The position numbers were made by a program, and so were the translations under genes. From Halorubrum hochsteinianum (lineage in GTDB: Archaea > Halobacteriota > Halobacteria > Halobacteriales > Haloferacaceae): 64,000 bases of DNA. Of this stretch, positions 10,402 to 18,557 are shown in pieces (position 1 is the stretch's first letter; the number at the start of each line of letters is the position of its first letter). The stretch spans positions 372,001 to 436,000 of the forward strand of contig NZ_CP098415.1 in the NCBI RefSeq assembly GCF_023702125.1, read 5' to 3'. Under the pieces are notes generated by a model. The model was not told the DNA's origin. It worked only from the letters and a program-made list of their open reading frames with translations, and ran no database searches.

Positions 10402-11973
10402 TCAGGGGCCGCGGAGCGTCTCGCCCGCGCCGTTCCGATGATCGGCCTCGTCGGCGACGGCCGTCGCGGCGACCGTCGTCGTCCGCGCGAGGCGGTCGGG
10501 AGTGAGGCCGCCGCACAGCTGGCTCCCCTCCGCGGTGCCGCCCCCGAGCAGGGGCGCGGCGTCGAACCCGTTCGACCGCGCGCCCGACGCCGCGATCCCG
10601 GGCTGGTTGACCACGAGACGGCCGGGGGCGAGCCGCTCCGCGACGCGGCGGGCGCGGCGCTGTTGGGTGGTGTGGACCGCCGCCGCGTGGGGCTCGCCGA
10701 TCTCGGCCGCGAGCGCGGTCGCGGCGTCGAACCCGTCGCGACCGTGGAGGGCGACCGCCGGGATCCCGGGCAGCGTCGCGAGCGGGTCGTCGGCACCCTC
10801 CGGCTCGACGACGAGGAACGCCGCCCGCCGGGCCGCGCTCGGGAGGTCGAGCGCGGCCGCCAGCCAGCGCGGCGAGTTCCCGCGCGGGTCCGACTCGGCG
10901 TCGACGCCGGTGGCGTCGTCCCCGCCTTCGCTCGGCCCGTCGAGCAGCGCCCGGAGGCGGTCGCGGTCGGCGGCGTCGAGGACGTACCCGCCCTCGTCTT
11001 CGAGCGCGGAACGGAGCGGGCCCACCGCCGGAGACACCGTGACGACCGCGGCGTCGCCCGCGGGGTGCGCGCCGAAGTCGTACGTCGCCCCGACTGCCAC
11101 CCGCGTCGCCACGGCCTCGGCCGGGACCGACCCGTCGGCGACGGCGACGACCCCGTCCGCGCCGGCCGCGACGTTCGGCGTCCCGCAGCGCTGTCCCGCG
11201 GCGATCGTCGCCTCGGAGCCGGCGGCGACCGCGAAGTCCGCGCGCTCGAACAGCGCGTCCGTCGCCGGCTTCGAGGCCGGCGCGGGCAGCATCGACACCG
11301 CGCCGGTCGGCGCGCCGGCCTCGGCGAGCGCTCGGCGGACAGTCTCGACGACGACGTCGCAGGTCTCCACGGTCGACGGCGAGGGCGCGAAGACGACCGC
11401 GTTCCGCGCCGCTAGCCCGTACAGGGAGAGGACGGCGGGCACCACGACCGGGTGCGTCGCCGGGACCGACGCGCCGACGACGCCGAGCGGCCCGGCGACG
11501 GTCACCGTGCCCGCCGCGCCGTCGCGGTCGACCACCCCCGCGGTCGGCGCGCCCCTGAGCGACCGGCGCGCGGCGTCGAGCGCGCTCGCGATCTTCTCGG
11601 CCTTCGTCCCCGGATGCCCTCGCCCCGTCTCGTTGGCCGCCGACCGCGCGAGCCGACTGACCGTCTCCCCGTCCGCCAGCCGCTCGCCGACCGCCCGGAC
11701 GAGTCCGTCGACGTCGTCGGGGTCCCACGCGGCCAGGTCGTCCGCCGCCGCCCGCGCCGCCGCGACGGCCCGCTCCGTGCGAGCCGTCGGGTTCTGGGCA
11801 GGCGCTGCGGATCGCTCGGCGGCGGCGGACGCCGAGGCGTCGCCGTCCCCCCCGGAGCGCTCGCCGTTCGAGCCGACGCCGTCGGCGGGTCCCGGGCGAT
11901 CGGGGGCGTCCGTCCCGTCGCGCTCGTTCGTCGCTCCCGTCGCGTCGCCGTCCTCCGTGCGGTTCCCGGTCAT
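10402..11973 (-). CDS. Aldehyde-dehydrogenase-family protein lacking the catalytic Cys
   Basis: A 523-aa protein. The first 60 or so residues are acidic and low-complexity. The rest follows the CoA-acylating aldehyde dehydrogenase (EutE/AdhE-N) layout: GPLGVVGASVPATHPV for the cofactor site, GTPNVAAGADG, and a VNQPGIAASG...LLGGGTAEG C-terminus. At the position of the catalytic Cys (family pattern DNGxxCASEQ) this protein has DFGAHPAGDA, so the Cys is Pro (codon at 11062-11064, residue 304). It should not form the usual thioester. It may be a binding or regulatory pseudoenzyme, or use other chemistry. Its promoter faces that of the ATPase gene at 12091. Confidence 0.75.
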   Translation of the reverse strand: MTGNRTEDGDATGATNERDGTDAPDRPGPADGVGSNGERSGGDGDASASAAAERSAAPAQNPTARTERAVAAARAAADDLAAWDPDDVDGLVRAVGERLADGETVSRLARSAANETGRGHPGTKAEKIASALDAARRSLRGAPTAGVVDRDGAAGTVTVAGPLGVVGASVPATHPVVVPAVLSLYGLAARNAVVFAPSPSTVETCDVVVETVRRALAEAGAPTGAVSMLPAPASKPATDALFERADFAVAAGSEATIAAGQRCGTPNVAAGADGVVAVADGSVPAEAVATRVAVGATYDFGAHPAGDAAVVTVSPAVGPLRSALEDEGGYVLDAADRDRLRALLDGPSEGGDDATGVDAESDPRGNSPRWLAAALDLPSAARRAAFLVVEPEGADDPLATLPGIPAVALHGRDGFDAATALAAEIGEPHAAAVHTTQQRRARRVAERLAPGRLVVNQPGIAASGARSNGFDAAPLLGGGTAEGSQLCGGLTPDRLARTTTVAATAVADEADHRNGAGETLRGP

Positions 11974-11996: not shown

Positions 11997-12004
11997 CCTT
12001 ATTC
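11997..12004 (-). promoter_or_regulatory. TATA-like box for the aldehyde-dehydrogenase-like gene
   Basis: The minus strand reads GAATAAGG, 24-31 nt before the ATG at 11973. It is part of a 117-bp divergent promoter region. Confidence 0.5.
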
Positions 12005-12059
12005 TCACCCCGTGAAACAGTGGGTCACCCCGTGCGAGGAGCCGTCAACGAGGAAACAG

Positions 12060-12065
12060 TTATAT
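12060..12065 (+). promoter_or_regulatory. TATA box for the wHTH-ATPase-TPR gene
   Basis: TTATAT, centred about 28 nt before the ATG at 12091, predicts a leaderless transcript and supports that start. Confidence 0.6.
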
Positions 12066-12090: not shown

Positions 12091-15000
12091 ATGACAGAGC
12101 CGTCGGAACTCGTGGGCGTCGTGGAGCGCCGCCTCGACTTCCTCGAACGGCTCGCGGCGGAGCCGCTGCGGAAACACGAACTCGTCGACGCGCTGGGCCA
12201 CTCCCGGTCGACGGTGAACCGCGCGGTGGACGAACTGGAGGCGGCGGGGCTCGTCGCCGGCGAGACGGACGGCTACCGGACGACGCTGCCCGGCCGACTG
12301 CTGGCGGACGAGTATCGGGGGTTCCTCACGGTCGCCGACGACCTCGCGGCCGCGGGCGACGTGCTCGACCCGCTCGGCGCGGACGCGGGCGTCTCCCCCG
12401 CGATCCTCCGGGACGCGGAGACGTACCGGGCCGCGGCCCCGGACCCGTACCGACCGCTGGAGGTCCTCGACGACGCCCTCGCCGACGCCGACGCGGTCGC
12501 CGCCGCCCTCCCGGCGTTCCCCTACCCCCGGATCGCGGAGCGGCTCCGTCGGACCGCGGTCGGCGGCGGGACCGTCGACCTCGCGCTGGCGGAGCGGGCG
12601 TACCGGCACGCGGCCGACCGGTTCCCGGACGACCTCGGCGCGGTCGCGCGCCGCGGGGGGTGTCGGATCGCGTCGGTCGACGCCTTCGACGTCGGGCTGG
12701 TCGCGGCCGACGGCGTCGCGCTCCTCCTCGTCTTCGACGGCGACGGCACGCTTCACGGCGCGGCGTCGTCGACGGACCCGGAGGCGCTCGCGTGGGCGGA
12801 GACGAGGGTGCGCGACCTGATCGGCCGGGGGCGGGACGGCGGCGAGGCGCTCGTGGCGATGGACCGCGGCGCAGCGCCCGCGACCGACGACAGGTCGGCG
12901 GCGGGTGACCCCGCCGAGTCCGACGCCCCGGGAGGCGACGCCCCAGAGGCCTCGACGGGCGGAAACGGCGACGGCGGCGCGCTCTTCGGTCCGGCGGACC
13001 CGGGCGAGCGGGGGCGGGACGCGCTCTCGGCGCAGGGGTTCCACGCGGTCGACGAGGATCGCCTCGCCGGGGACCCGGACCCGCGCGGGCCGCTCCGCGC
13101 GACGGCGTCGTTCCCGGAGGTCGACGCGGGGCACGTCCTCAACAGGACCGCGGCCCGCGACGGCGGGCGGCGCTCGATCGCCGGACTGCTCGTCGACGGC
13201 CTCGCCGAGGGGACCGACCACGCGCTCGTCGGGCCGCCGGGGAGCGGGAAGAGCACCGTCTGCCGGAGCGTCGCGGTCGAGTGGTACCGGTCGGGCCGCG
13301 GCCCGGTGACGTACCGCGCGAGCGGCGGCGGCGAGGCGTTCACCGCGACGGAGCGACTGCGGGAGCGCGTCGCCGGCGGCGACGGCCACCACCTGGTCGT
13401 CGTCGAGGACGCCGTGGATCCGGGGGCCGCGGAGGCGGTCGGGGTCGCTCGCGAACTGGCCGACCGCGACGACGTCTCCTTCCTGTTCGACGCCCGCGAG
13501 GAGCCGTACGACGACCCCGACGGCCTCCCGCTCTCGCCCGCGGACCTCCGCTACCGGCGGCGGATCGAGACCGTTCGGGTCCCGCGGCTCGACGAGCGCG
13601 AGGTCGAGCGGTTCGTCCGCCACGTCGCCGAGCGCACCGGGTCCGCCCCGGCGGCCGACCCGGGATCGCTGCTCGCCGACGTGCGCCGCGCCGACGACGA
13701 GCGCGTCGGCGAACTGCTGTGTCTCGTCCACCGCCTCGTCCGCGCGGCCGACGGCGAGACGGGGACCGGCGTCGAGGGAGGTGTGCGGGACGCCGCCGAC
13801 GGCGCGACGCGCGACGGCGCGGACGGACCGGCGCAGAACTCCCCCGACGAGGACGACGCGGGACCGACCTCCGGGCTGGAGACCGCGGTCGCGGAGGCGG
13901 TCCGCGAGGTCGAGAGCCGCCCCCCGCCGACCGCGGACGTGGCGGTGCTGGTGAACCTCCTCAACGTCGCCGGCGTGAGCGACGTTCGGACGCTGGCGTA
14001 CGCGCTCGTCGACTGCCCGGAGCGAGGCGTCTCGCGCGAGGACGGCGGCGGTCCGTCGCCGACGGTCGAGGGGGTCCGCCGGGCGCTCGACAGGCTCACC
14101 GGAACGGCCCTCGTGGGGTCCGGCGACGGGGGGTACCGCACCGTCCACGACGAGTGGTCGGTGCTGTTCTTAGAGCGGCTGGTGGAGCGGGAGCCGGAGC
14201 CGGTCGCCGCGCGGCGGGTCGGACGGACCGTCTCGCGGGTCCTCGCGCTCGCCGACGACCCGGCGCGTCGCGCCCGGGTCCGGCGGGCGGTCGGAGGCGA
14301 CGCGCCGACGGTGGATCGGATCGGACGCGACCCGGGCGCGTGGGCGGCGGAGACGGTCCGAGCGGTGTACGGCGTCGGCCGGCGCTACCCGCGGCTCGCG
14401 GCGCTGTACGGCCGCGTCCGCTACGCGTGGATCGACCTGCCGGACGCGTGCCCGGACGACCTGCGCGACCGCCCGCCGGAGTGGGTGTCGCGGATGTACG
14501 TCGACGCCGGCGACCTCGACGGCGCGACCGAGGCGCTCGACGCGTGGCGACCGGTCGACGACGCGGGGGAGGCGGAGCGCCAGCGCGAGTACGGCAACGT
14601 GGCGCGCCGCCGCGGCGAGTACGACGCGGCGCGGGAGCGGTTCGAACGGGCAGAGGAGCTGTTCGCGGCCGCCGGCGACCGAGAGGGACTCGCGGCGGCC
14701 GTCAGGGGACGGGCGCAGGCGGCGCACTTCGACGGCGACTACGAGACCGCCTACGAGGCGGCGTCGCGGGCGTACGCCATCGCCGCCGAGGCGGAAGACC
14801 CTATCGGGATGGCGAAGGCGCTGATGGACGCCGGCAACGCGCTCGACGCGCTCGACGGGACGGACGCGGTCCTCGACCACTACCGCGTCGCCGGCGACCT
14901 GTTCCGGGCGCACGACGCCACCCACGGCGAGGCGAACGTCCGGACGAACCTCGCGGTCGCGCTGCGGCGGCGCGGCGACCTCGACGCCGCGAAGCGAACG

Positions 15001-15864
15001 GCGAGCCGCGCGCTCGACGGCTACCGGACGGTCGGCGACAGACACCGCGAGGCCATCTGCCTTTTGAACCTCGCGGCGGTCGCCGAGCAGCGCGGCGCGG
15101 TCGGCGAGGCGGTCGCCCACGCGTCGGAGGCCCGCGCGGTCGCCGAGGAAGTCGGGTCGGAGATGTACGAGGCGTTCGCGCTGAGCCACCTCGGCAGCGC
15201 GGCGTACGTCGGCGGCGACCTCGACCGGGCGGAGCGGTTCCTGACGGACGCGCTCGACCGCCTCGACGCGCTCGACGCCGACGCGCGGTGCGCGATGGTG
15301 ACCGCGATGCTCGTGGAGGTCGCGGTCGACCGCGGCGACCTCTCGGCGGCCGAGCGCCGGCTGGAACGGACCGCGTCGCTGCTCGACGACCACGCCGGCC
15401 ACAAGCGACTCGCCGAGACGGACCGGGTCCGCGGACGGCTGGCGCTCGCCCGCGGCGACCCCGACGCCGCGACGGCGGCGCTGCGGTCCGCGGTCGACGC
15501 CGCGAGGGAGGGGGGGTTCACGCAGGTCGAGGCCGAGGCGCTCGCGTCGCTCGGAGCAGCGGCCGCCGCGCGCGGCGACGCCGACGCGGCCGCCGACCGG
15601 CTGACCGCGGCCCTCGACCTCGGTCGGCGGGTCGAGGGCGCGGTCGCCGTCGTTACCGCGGCCGACCGGCTCGCGGAGTTGCTGACCGGTGAGTCCGACG
15701 AATCGGCCGGAGTCGACCCCGAGGCGCTGGGCGAGGCGCTCCGAGCGTCGCCGCCCAACGCGGTTTCCGCGGAATCAGCCGCTGATCCGGCCGCGTACCA
15801 GGAGATCGCCGACCGCTGGCGCGTCGACGGCGGGGTCGAGGCGAGGTATCCCGCGCTCGGCTGA
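12091..15864 (+). CDS. wHTH - FilR1-like - P-loop ATPase - TPR regulator (STAND-like)
   Basis: A 1257-aa multidomain protein. Residues 1-70 are a winged helix (LRKHELVDALGHSRSTVNRAV...), followed to about 245 by a region resembling the ligand domain of FilR1-type archaeal regulators. After an acidic linker comes a P-loop NTPase. Walker A GPPGSGKST is at 381-389, and the Walker B strand LVVVED is near 435-440. An arginine-rich helical region follows. Residues 795-1200 form tandem TPR-like helical pairs with recurring Gly/Asp turns (RGEYDAARERFERAEEL, RGDLDAAKRTASRAL). The order recalls MalT/STAND switches, but with the DNA-binding domain N-terminal. It is probably an ATP-dependent sensor-regulator; ligand and targets are unknown. 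Confidence 0.8.
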   Translation: MTEPSELVGVVERRLDFLERLAAEPLRKHELVDALGHSRSTVNRAVDELEAAGLVAGETDGYRTTLPGRLLADEYRGFLTVADDLAAAGDVLDPLGADAGVSPAILRDAETYRAAAPDPYRPLEVLDDALADADAVAAALPAFPYPRIAERLRRTAVGGGTVDLALAERAYRHAADRFPDDLGAVARRGGCRIASVDAFDVGLVAADGVALLLVFDGDGTLHGAASSTDPEALAWAETRVRDLIGRGRDGGEALVAMDRGAAPATDDRSAAGDPAESDAPGGDAPEASTGGNGDGGALFGPADPGERGRDALSAQGFHAVDEDRLAGDPDPRGPLRATASFPEVDAGHVLNRTAARDGGRRSIAGLLVDGLAEGTDHALVGPPGSGKSTVCRSVAVEWYRSGRGPVTYRASGGGEAFTATERLRERVAGGDGHHLVVVEDAVDPGAAEAVGVARELADRDDVSFLFDAREEPYDDPDGLPLSPADLRYRRRIETVRVPRLDEREVERFVRHVAERTGSAPAADPGSLLADVRRADDERVGELLCLVHRLVRAADGETGTGVEGGVRDAADGATRDGADGPAQNSPDEDDAGPTSGLETAVAEAVREVESRPPPTADVAVLVNLLNVAGVSDVRTLAYALVDCPERGVSREDGGGPSPTVEGVRRALDRLTGTALVGSGDGGYRTVHDEWSVLFLERLVEREPEPVAARRVGRTVSRVLALADDPARRARVRRAVGGDAPTVDRIGRDPGAWAAETVRAVYGVGRRYPRLAALYGRVRYAWIDLPDACPDDLRDRPPEWVSRMYVDAGDLDGATEALDAWRPVDDAGEAERQREYGNVARRRGEYDAARERFERAEELFAAAGDREGLAAAVRGRAQAAHFDGDYETAYEAASRAYAIAAEAEDPIGMAKALMDAGNALDALDGTDAVLDHYRVAGDLFRAHDATHGEANVRTNLAVALRRRGDLDAAKRTASRALDGYRTVGDRHREAICLLNLAAVAEQRGAVGEAVAHASEARAVAEEVGSEMYEAFALSHLGSAAYVGGDLDRAERFLTDALDRLDALDADARCAMVTAMLVEVAVDRGDLSAAERRLERTASLLDDHAGHKRLAETDRVRGRLALARGDPDAATAALRSAVDAAREGGFTQVEAEALASLGAAAAARGDADAAADRLTAALDLGRRVEGAVAVVTAADRLAELLTGESDESAGVDPEALGEALRASPPNAVSAESAADPAAYQEIADRWRVDGGVEARYPALG

Positions 15865-16803: not shown

Positions 16804-17814
16804 TTATAAGAACGCCGCCACGCCGAGCGCCTCGATCAGCGGCACGCCCGCGACGACCGACCCGATCAGGTAACCGCCGATCGCGCCGCCATTTAAGAGG
16901 GGGAGCCCCGCGTGCGGGCGTCCCTTTATCACCCACCGCATGAGGACGAGCAGGCCCGCGAGGGTGCCGACCATCGCGAGCAGCGCGGGGAGGTTCACCC
17001 CGAGGAGCGGGACCGCGAGGTCCGGGGCCGACGAGAACGTCGCCGCGCTCGCGATCAGCACGGTCGGGATGACGGCGTCGCCGAGCCCGATGAAGAAGGC
17101 GTCGCGGTCGCCGGGTTCGGCCGGCTCCGCGGGGTCTCCCCCCTCGTTTACATCGCCCTCGGCGTCCGAAGCGCCCTCAACGTCCCCGTCCGATCCCCCG
17201 TCGTCGCCGACTCCGGCGGCCTCGTCGCTCGCGGTCTCGCCGTCGAGCAGCGAGTACGACAGCGACAGCGGGATCACCAGCACGACGGGGATGTTGAGGT
17301 CCATGATCCCCTCGGCGAGCGACAGCATGTGCTCGGTGCCGTACACCGAGATGGCGTCGTAGACGGCGAGCACGGCGAGCAGCAGCAGCGCGGGCAGCAG
17401 CCCGAAGGAGATACCGAACAGCCCGGCCGCGCCCGCCCCCATCAGCACGCCCGCGGTGTCTATCACGTACCACTCCGGGTGAACGAGCAGGCCGGCCCCG
17501 ACCGCGAGCGCCGGCACCGCGGCCGCGAGCGGCGGGACGAGCGCCGAGAAGACGTACCACGAGAGGTACGCGGAGACGCCGACGATCAGCAGGCGGATCG
17601 CCCCGTCGAGGTCGTAGCGGAACGCCGCGAGCATCAGCCCGGTCATCGCGACGATGGCGGCGACGTACACGAGACTGTTCGCGGGGTTGTCGGGGTTCTC
17701 GACCGCCTGGTAGCCGCTCTCGGCGAACTCCGGGACCAGCGCCAGCGCGCCCAGTTGGACGGCGAGGAACAGCCCGACCACGAAGGCGACGCCGCGGTAC
17801 TCGCGGGGGAACAT
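16804..17814 (-). CDS. Presenilin/SPP-family intramembrane aspartyl protease
   Basis: A 336-aa multi-spanning protein. The two catalytic Asp motifs are visible: YD at residues 152-153 in the VYDAISVYGT helix, and GLGD with D246. A Pro-Leu motif (GLPLLN) stands where presenilins have PAL. Residues 192-238, between the catalytic helices, form a long Asp/Glu/Gly-rich cytoplasmic loop, much more acidic than the equivalent loop in methanogen homologues. ATG 17814 (MFPREYRG) is preferred over an upstream start that would add a basic segment. Substrates are unknown; the family cleaves membrane-spanning peptides. Confidence 0.85.
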   Translation of the reverse strand: MFPREYRGVAFVVGLFLAVQLGALALVPEFAESGYQAVENPDNPANSLVYVAAIVAMTGLMLAAFRYDLDGAIRLLIVGVSAYLSWYVFSALVPPLAAAVPALAVGAGLLVHPEWYVIDTAGVLMGAGAAGLFGISFGLLPALLLLAVLAVYDAISVYGTEHMLSLAEGIMDLNIPVVLVIPLSLSYSLLDGETASDEAAGVGDDGGSDGDVEGASDAEGDVNEGGDPAEPAEPGDRDAFFIGLGDAVIPTVLIASAATFSSAPDLAVPLLGVNLPALLAMVGTLAGLLVLMRWVIKGRPHAGLPLLNGGAIGGYLIGSVVAGVPLIEALGVAAFL

Positions 17815-18557
17815 TCGACCGCCGGTTCGGCGGCCGGGGGCTTCGTCCTTGCGCTTCCGGGCCGCGAACGGCGAGACCGTCGGCTCCCGGTCGGAGGCAC
17901 GGCGCGACAGAAACGGGTCCGGGCTCGGTGTGGGAGCGGGTGGGCCCGAACCCAAGCCGGCGGACGACGGACGGTGGAAGCGAGTGGCCGACCGGCCCGC
18001 CCCGGAGGGGATGGGGCCGGTCGGATTCGTCCGCGGCGTTTACTCTCTCCGGCGACTGACGTAAGAACGTACCGCTCAAATTATCGATTCGGATACTCGC
18101 GTCGCGGCGGCGGGATCCCGGCCGCGCCGTCCCCGAACGAACTCGCACAGTCGCGAGGGAACGAGCGATAGCGGTGGCGACCGCCGGCGGACGGACCCGG
18201 CGAAGCGCGGACGGATACGAGGTGCGGAGAGGCGCGGGACGCGGAACGAGCCGAAGCGGGGAACGAGCCGAAGCGGGGAACGCGACCGGAGACGGAACTG
18301 AACGGGAAGTGGCAGAACTGAACGGGAGGCGGCGGAAAGGGGTGGACGAAAGGCGAACGGAGAGGTGGTGGGAGGCGGGCGGACGGGCGGCGGCCGGACA
18401 GCGGACCCCCAGGCTGTCGTCGGCGACGCCGCCCGGGTGGTCGGGACGGGCGCGCGGATTGTCAGCGCCGAACTCCAACGAGAAAAGCGTCGGACTTCGG
18501 CATCCGATCGTACGTGCCTCAGGGGTATAAATATGTGAGATCCGGTCGCGGACCGAT
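17815..18557. other. 743-bp intergenic region without a convincing gene
   Basis: It lies between the presenilin-like gene start and the end of the nitrilase gene. It holds a perfect 17-bp tandem repeat (18244-18260 and 18261-18277) and a spaced near-identical 15-bp repeat (18295-18309 and 18315-18329). There is a short AT-richer patch near 18076-18092 and a TATA-like stretch near 18528-18537. No tRNA, SRP RNA or RNase P RNA was recognised. Reading frames here are Arg/Pro-rich and look non-coding. Confidence 0.6.

Follow-up and report, generated by a model that had tools for sequence, protein, structure and literature searches.

What does a large archaeal regulator read, if the gene that stands back to back with it encodes an aldehyde dehydrogenase (ALDH) homologue without its catalytic residue? 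This question is raised by a locus in the Halorubrum hochsteinianum chromosome (3.06 Mb), of which a 64,000-nucleotide stretch (contig NZ_CP098415.1, positions 372,001–436,000; the window) was analysed. Here an open reading frame (ORF) at 12091–15864 on the plus strand encodes a 1257-aa STAND-type protein, the closest named orthologues of which all belong to Halorubrum (77–93% identity), and a 117-bp gap separates it from the divergent ALDH-like gene. Our answer, to which we give an even chance, is that the protein is a MalT-like transcription switch of the STAND class, inherited together with a pseudoenzyme partner, and that it controls both itself and this dedicated gating pseudoenzyme. No description of such a STAND/pseudo-ALDH system was found in the open-access literature, and our literature search returned no paper on the HVO_A0261 domain. 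The two genes are as follows.

12091–15864, plus strand: STAND regulator gene, 1257 aa, stop codon included (ORF, Pfam, orthologues)
10402–11973, minus strand: ALDH-like pseudoenzyme gene, 523 aa, stop codon included; divergent, co-occurs with the STAND gene
11053–11082, minus strand: dead active site YDFGAHPAGD, residues 298–307, with Pro304 at the catalytic Cys position

The most informative features of the locus, the co-inheritance of the ALDH gene and the operator region shared by the two genes, were not in the earlier note on this DNA. Both genes are present in 23 of the 52 Halorubrum species genomes, always adjacent and divergent, and both are missing from 28; the remaining genome (G140) has no ALDH gene and only a distant 36% paralogue of the STAND protein, and no ALDH gene without a STAND gene was found in any of the 52. 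In the carriers the cassette is flanked by an HD-domain gene and a TGT_C2-PUA gene, its neighbours are housekeeping genes and its chromosomal position is conserved. In five non-carrier loci the HD and PUA genes adjoin, being 0–205 bp apart. On a tree of the flanking genes (27 tips) carriers and non-carriers are intermixed, and parsimony places five presence/absence changes on it, all of which affect both genes together. Because presence and absence are joint, the empty sites are precise and the five changes are shared, we conclude that the STAND and ALDH genes are gained or lost as a unit. In one non-carrier clade (four loci) the HD and PUA genes are separated by other sequence of about 1.4 kb.

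The 523-aa partner is related to acylating aldehyde dehydrogenases (best PDB match 8cei, E 1.2e-33), and its best NCBIfam match is the sulfoacetaldehyde dehydrogenase SauS, far under the cut-off of that model. In the alignment the catalytic Cys of 8cei (YDNGIICSSE) stands opposite Pro304 (YDFGAHPAGD), to which an Ala adjoins. Pro304 is invariant in all Halorubrum orthologues, and the divergent ALDH homologue that the earlier note had mentioned is real. The Cys is kept in all 11 nearest ALDH relatives outside the cassette, which come from nine other haloarchaeal genomes and have no adjoining STAND gene within the stretches fetched. Elsewhere in the cassette-borne protein Cys205 is invariant and Cys263 is widely kept, and the old pocket may still bind aldehyde, acyl-CoA or NAD(H). 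The dN/dS ratios of close pairs were 0.29–0.39 for the ALDH homologue (the distant pair with L200 was left out because of a bad frame or alignment) and 0.31–0.34 for the STAND gene, values that are indicative only, as they were obtained by a simple method in a GC-rich genome. Both proteins bear conserved, cassette-specific C-terminal tails. Co-inheritance and the lost catalytic residue together suggest that the dead ALDH is part of the switch; that it acts as a regulatory partner is argued by its never occurring without the STAND gene (which is truncated in one genome, G111) and by the tails on both proteins.

The 117-bp gap contains two conserved promoter-like blocks, which flank a near-palindrome.

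11998–12003, minus strand: putative TATA-like box AATAAG (minus-strand reading) for the ALDH gene, some 27 bp ahead of the start codon and within a conserved block
12012–12028, no strand: near-palindrome GTGAAACAGTGGGTCAC, candidate operator; genus form GTGRMACACTGTGTCAC, conserved in 21 sequences
12060–12065, plus strand: putative TATA-like box TTATAT for the STAND gene, some 28 bp ahead of the start codon and within the conserved block GAAACAGTTAT

The two boxes stand about 27–28 bp from the start codons, a spacing that in haloarchaea suggests leaderless transcripts, here of both genes. The two arms of the near-palindrome match at 10–14 of the 16 paired positions in the 21 sequences. When at most one mismatch was allowed, it was found once per genome, always at this locus, in the seven other carriers tested, and no site was found in the four non-carriers searched. 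Its place immediately upstream of the ALDH promoter would suit activation of the ALDH gene.

The STAND protein was described in the earlier note as a winged helix, a FilR1-type domain, a P-loop ATPase and a TPR array in this order, and as a regulator rather than an enzyme. Pfam and the predicted structure agree with this: the ORF product is a four-part protein with an HVO_A0261-type winged helix, FilR1_middle, a STAND ATPase core (NOD) and about ten TPRs of 40 residues each.

12091–12333, plus strand: winged helix HVO_A0261_N, residues 1–81 (Pfam E 7.8e-17; helix-turn-helix and wing in the model)
12409–12840, plus strand: FilR1_middle domain, residues 107–250 (Pfam E 9.2e-15; predicted phospholipase-D-like fold without HKD motif)
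12841–13014, plus strand: linker between the DNA-binding half and the NOD, residues 251–308, mostly of low confidence (pLDDT <50 at 260–308)
13015–14475, plus strand: predicted STAND NOD (NBD, HD, WHD) and start of the arm, residues 309–795; fold matches 6mfv, 8bob_C and 3sfz
13231–13257, plus strand: Walker A GPPGSGKST, residues 381–389; core invariant in 38 homologues
13393–13410, plus strand: Walker B LVVVED, residues 435–440, with an acidic pair; conserved in 38 homologues
14143–14151, plus strand: VHD, an MHD-like motif in the winged-helix part of the NOD, residues 685–687; His686 nearly invariant
14473–15690, plus strand: TPR sensor of about ten 40-residue repeats, residues 795–1200 (Pfam, model, match to MalT domain III)
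15784–15825, plus strand: C-terminal tail DPAAYQEIADRWRV, residues 1232–1245; conserved only among cassette-borne STANDs

The Pfam scan placed HVO_A0261_N at 11–80 and FilR1_middle at 119–241, both above cut-off, and found five stretches of TPR_12 (E 3.2e-20). The match to nSTAND_NTPase5 (378–471, E 5.5e-6) is under Pfam's cut-off for this protein, and the same model exceeds its curated cut-off in five relatives. As a profile search with residues 1–800 against PDB sequences gave generic P-loop and winged-helix matches only, STAND membership rests on the motifs, the nSTAND_NTPase5 matches and the predicted fold. Motif conservation was judged from an alignment of 38 diverse homologues. The Walker A motif is at the residues claimed before, its core is kept in all 38, and both FLFDAR (464–469, Arg-bearing, after the fourth strand) and VHDEW (685–689) are nearly invariant; of the GxP motif of the HD subdomain, Gly540 is kept at the helix start (GEL) and the Pro is absent. 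AlphaFold2 models were made of residues 1–800 (pLDDT 83.9, pTM 0.60) and 335–1200 (pLDDT 85.1, pTM 0.77). Residues 300–800 matched PH0952 (6mfv, Z 13.9, root-mean-square deviation (rmsd) 4.5, 297 residues aligned), MalT (8bob_C, Z 13.4, 312 aligned) and Apaf-1 (3sfz, Z 13.7, 337 aligned), all three alignments extending over the WHD. SAMD9 and Avs5 also ranked high, while Clp ATPases reached similar Z scores, yet over just 210–226 residues. From about 795 to 1200 the model shows regular 40-residue helical hairpins, and this array matched MalT domain III (1hz4, Z 16.9, rmsd 3.3, 338 aligned), in a comparison in which TPR arrays generally score high. On motifs and predicted fold, the protein is thus a STAND ATPase with a TPR sensor C-terminal to the NOD. 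Neither of the two outcomes that the earlier note had named as refuting its description, a missing STAND/AAA match around 381–640 or a C-terminal part without TPR periodicity, was observed.

In the other half, FilR1_middle and a linker of about 50 residues lie between the winged helix and the NOD. Residues 107–250 of the model matched phospholipase-D-like (PLD-like) folds, namely NucT (6ehi, Z 14.2, rmsd 2.9 over 138 residues), Nuc (1byr) and FAM83B, and residues 4–248 matched TrmBL2, which consists of a winged helix and a PLD-like domain. From the PLD-like fold and the TrmBL2 match it follows that the N-terminal half is a FilR1/TrmB-like regulator fused to a STAND-TPR input; stand-alone proteins of this regulator type, of about 265 aa, occur throughout haloarchaea. 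A search of the whole protein for an HxK motif found none, and a nuclease role of the known type was therefore rejected for the PLD-like domain. No receiver (REC) domain was found in the Pfam and NCBIfam scans. Thus, the label 'FilR1-like' in the earlier note holds for the winged helix and the middle domain, and fails for the terminal receiver domain of FilR1, which is absent here.

These parts can be assembled into a mechanism modelled on MalT. The winged helix would bind the near-palindrome at 12012–12028 and control both genes. The resting protein would be an autoinhibited, ADP-bound form, in which the TPRs serve as the signal-receiving part; on signal it would open with ATP, and ATP-bound oligomers would then bind the operator. 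The pseudo-ALDH may contact the STAND protein and hold or release it in the way that MalY and Aes act on MalT, the protein–protein contact being proposed by analogy. As the operator is found immediately upstream of the ALDH promoter, oligomers bound there would most likely activate the ALDH gene. More specifically, and only tentatively, since we rate it at somewhat less than an even chance, the dead ALDH could be a dedicated receptor or gatekeeper, which reads a metabolite in its old substrate or cofactor pocket and passes the state via the TPRs to the ATPase, in a circuit where one operator serves both genes.

Several observations weigh against this reading. In G111 (L201) the ALDH gene is whole and the STAND gene breaks off after about residue 367, with the winged helix–FilR1 half remaining, so the ALDH persists there without NOD and TPRs. 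The STAND relatives of other genera have no ALDH beside them, hence the partner role would have to be a Halorubrum innovation. The near-palindrome of the window itself has two mismatches to the genus form, the palindromes of two species are weak, and the candidate operator could belong to another regulator. Moreover, the only recognisable target is the STAND/ALDH pair.

Among the rival explanations, one-way regulation survives best, although we consider it rather unlikely: the STAND protein would sense a small molecule by itself and control the ALDH gene, and the ALDH would be metabolic, by non-canonical catalysis or ligand storage, making no contact with the regulator. Regulators and targets that diverge from one common operator are frequent, the operator here has a position suited to controlling the ALDH promoter, and Cys205 and Cys263 could speak for a remaining metabolic role. 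However, the nucleophile position is Pro in every orthologue and Cys in the relatives outside the cassette, and the two genes are lost together without exception, a closer linkage than is usual for regulator and target. An antiviral or conflict module, in which the TPRs sense an invader and the cassette is gained and lost as other defence genes are, is improbable. The patchy presence at one site, the haloarchaeal STAND-TPR proteins that have no winged helix and the Avs5 fold match would fit it, but the N-terminus is a DNA-binding half instead of a nuclease, protease or membrane effector, its PLD-like domain has no HKD motif, and the neighbours are housekeeping genes. PADLOC returned only generic TPR and Csa3/CARF winged-helix matches for the STAND protein and no Avs family; with neither an Avs match nor a nuclease or toxin effector, and with a conserved position among housekeeping genes, the link to Avs-type defence drawn in the earlier note is not supported. 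A third view, in which the pseudo-ALDH is in decay and is carried along by a useful STAND gene, is very improbable. The active site is indeed lost, and in a few genomes (G126, G111) the reading frame of the ALDH or the STAND gene is broken or divided, but the ALDH frame is full-length in most of the 23 species, its dN/dS in close pairs is 0.29–0.39, and the dead motif and the C-terminal tail are invariant.

The proposed switch with a pseudoenzyme partner has several partial parallels. PH0952 of Pyrococcus horikoshii (PDB 6MFV) has an ArsR-like DNA-binding domain, a NOD, an arm and a TPR sensor in this order (PMC6468293). It resembles the Halorubrum protein in the NOD fold over residues 300–800, but it lacks a FilR1/PLD-like domain between its DNA-binding domain and NOD, and a profile search linked the two sequences through the TPRs only. 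We know of no ALDH partner of PH0952. In Escherichia coli, MalY and Aes, both of them enzymes with functions of their own, keep MalT in check (PMC10427625). MalT shares the NOD, the TPR-type sensor (8bob_C, 1hz4), the role in transcription and, as proposed here for the pseudo-ALDH, the use of enzymes as negative partners; in contrast, its DNA-binding domain is C-terminal instead of N-terminal, and MalY and Aes are working enzymes, while the partner in Halorubrum is a dead enzyme, inherited inseparably with the switch. FilR1 of Methanosaeta harundinacea, which binds and activates its own promoter, likewise has its FilR1 middle domain behind a DNA-binding domain related to ArsR, but carries a C-terminal, kinase-driven receiver domain (PMC3991700) where the present protein has a STAND ATPase and TPRs. 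TrmB/TrmBL2 (PDB 5BQT) also combine a winged helix with a PLD-like domain (5bqt_A over 4–248, Z 14.3, with an rmsd of 18.7 that reflects a different angle between the two domains), but have no ATPase or TPRs and another Pfam middle domain. AfsR of Streptomyces coelicolor is a bacterial SARP-NOD-TPR protein (PMC10936776). Like the protein studied here it has an N-terminal DNA-binding effector, a NOD and a TPR sensor (TPR sequence match 8k60, E 2.5e-26), but its DNA-binding domain is of the SARP type, it is bacterial, and it has no PLD-like domain. The earlier note had expected a new switch arrangement. An archaeal STAND regulator with an N-terminal DNA-binding domain and a TPR sensor is already known from PH0952, and AfsR has the same order; the novelty lies in the FilR1/TrmB-like domain that separates the DNA-binding domain from the NOD, and in the obligate pseudoenzyme partner.

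Apoptosomes, the immune receptors of plants and animals, and bacterial regulators are built on STAND proteins, and we know of no switching trigger for the archaeal ones. In this locus genetics by itself points to a natural partner, with two genes that share one operator and with 23 carrier species against 28 clean non-carriers, so that what triggers an archaeal STAND can be tested directly. The comparison with FilR1 also points to a modular exchange of inputs on an archaeal regulator chassis, a receiver domain there and STAND-TPR here, and the partner would illustrate a route by which a metabolic enzyme becomes a signalling part.

The domain order is kept in the Halorubrum orthologues and in more than 25 relatives of other genera, the proteins with this order being mostly of 1090–1310 aa and from several families of Halobacteriales; in 196 genomes sampled across the phylum, matches were confined to this order. 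Five relatives of the ATPase-TPR part (L053, L058–L061) have other N-termini and no winged helix. They are related in the ATPase and are possible conflict proteins; their PADLOC matches were limited to generic models (TPR, mads or C3a).

Next to the cassette, many Halorubrum species have a gene for the presenilin-type intramembrane protease PSH (383 aa), which lies at 16807–17955 in the window. In seven loci of other genera the STAND gene is directly downstream of the gene of the archaeosine enzyme RaSEA, near purQ/purS, and the TGT_C2-PUA protein encoded after the STAND gene in Halorubrum resembles the end of ArcS. The neighbourhood is possibly linked with tRNA modification, or the association may be due to chance. 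Finally, two distinct loci (L046 and L047) contain near the STAND gene an 80-aa ORF with an identical-looking start (VHKLTPHTGLPESTTFV...), perhaps part of a mobile element.

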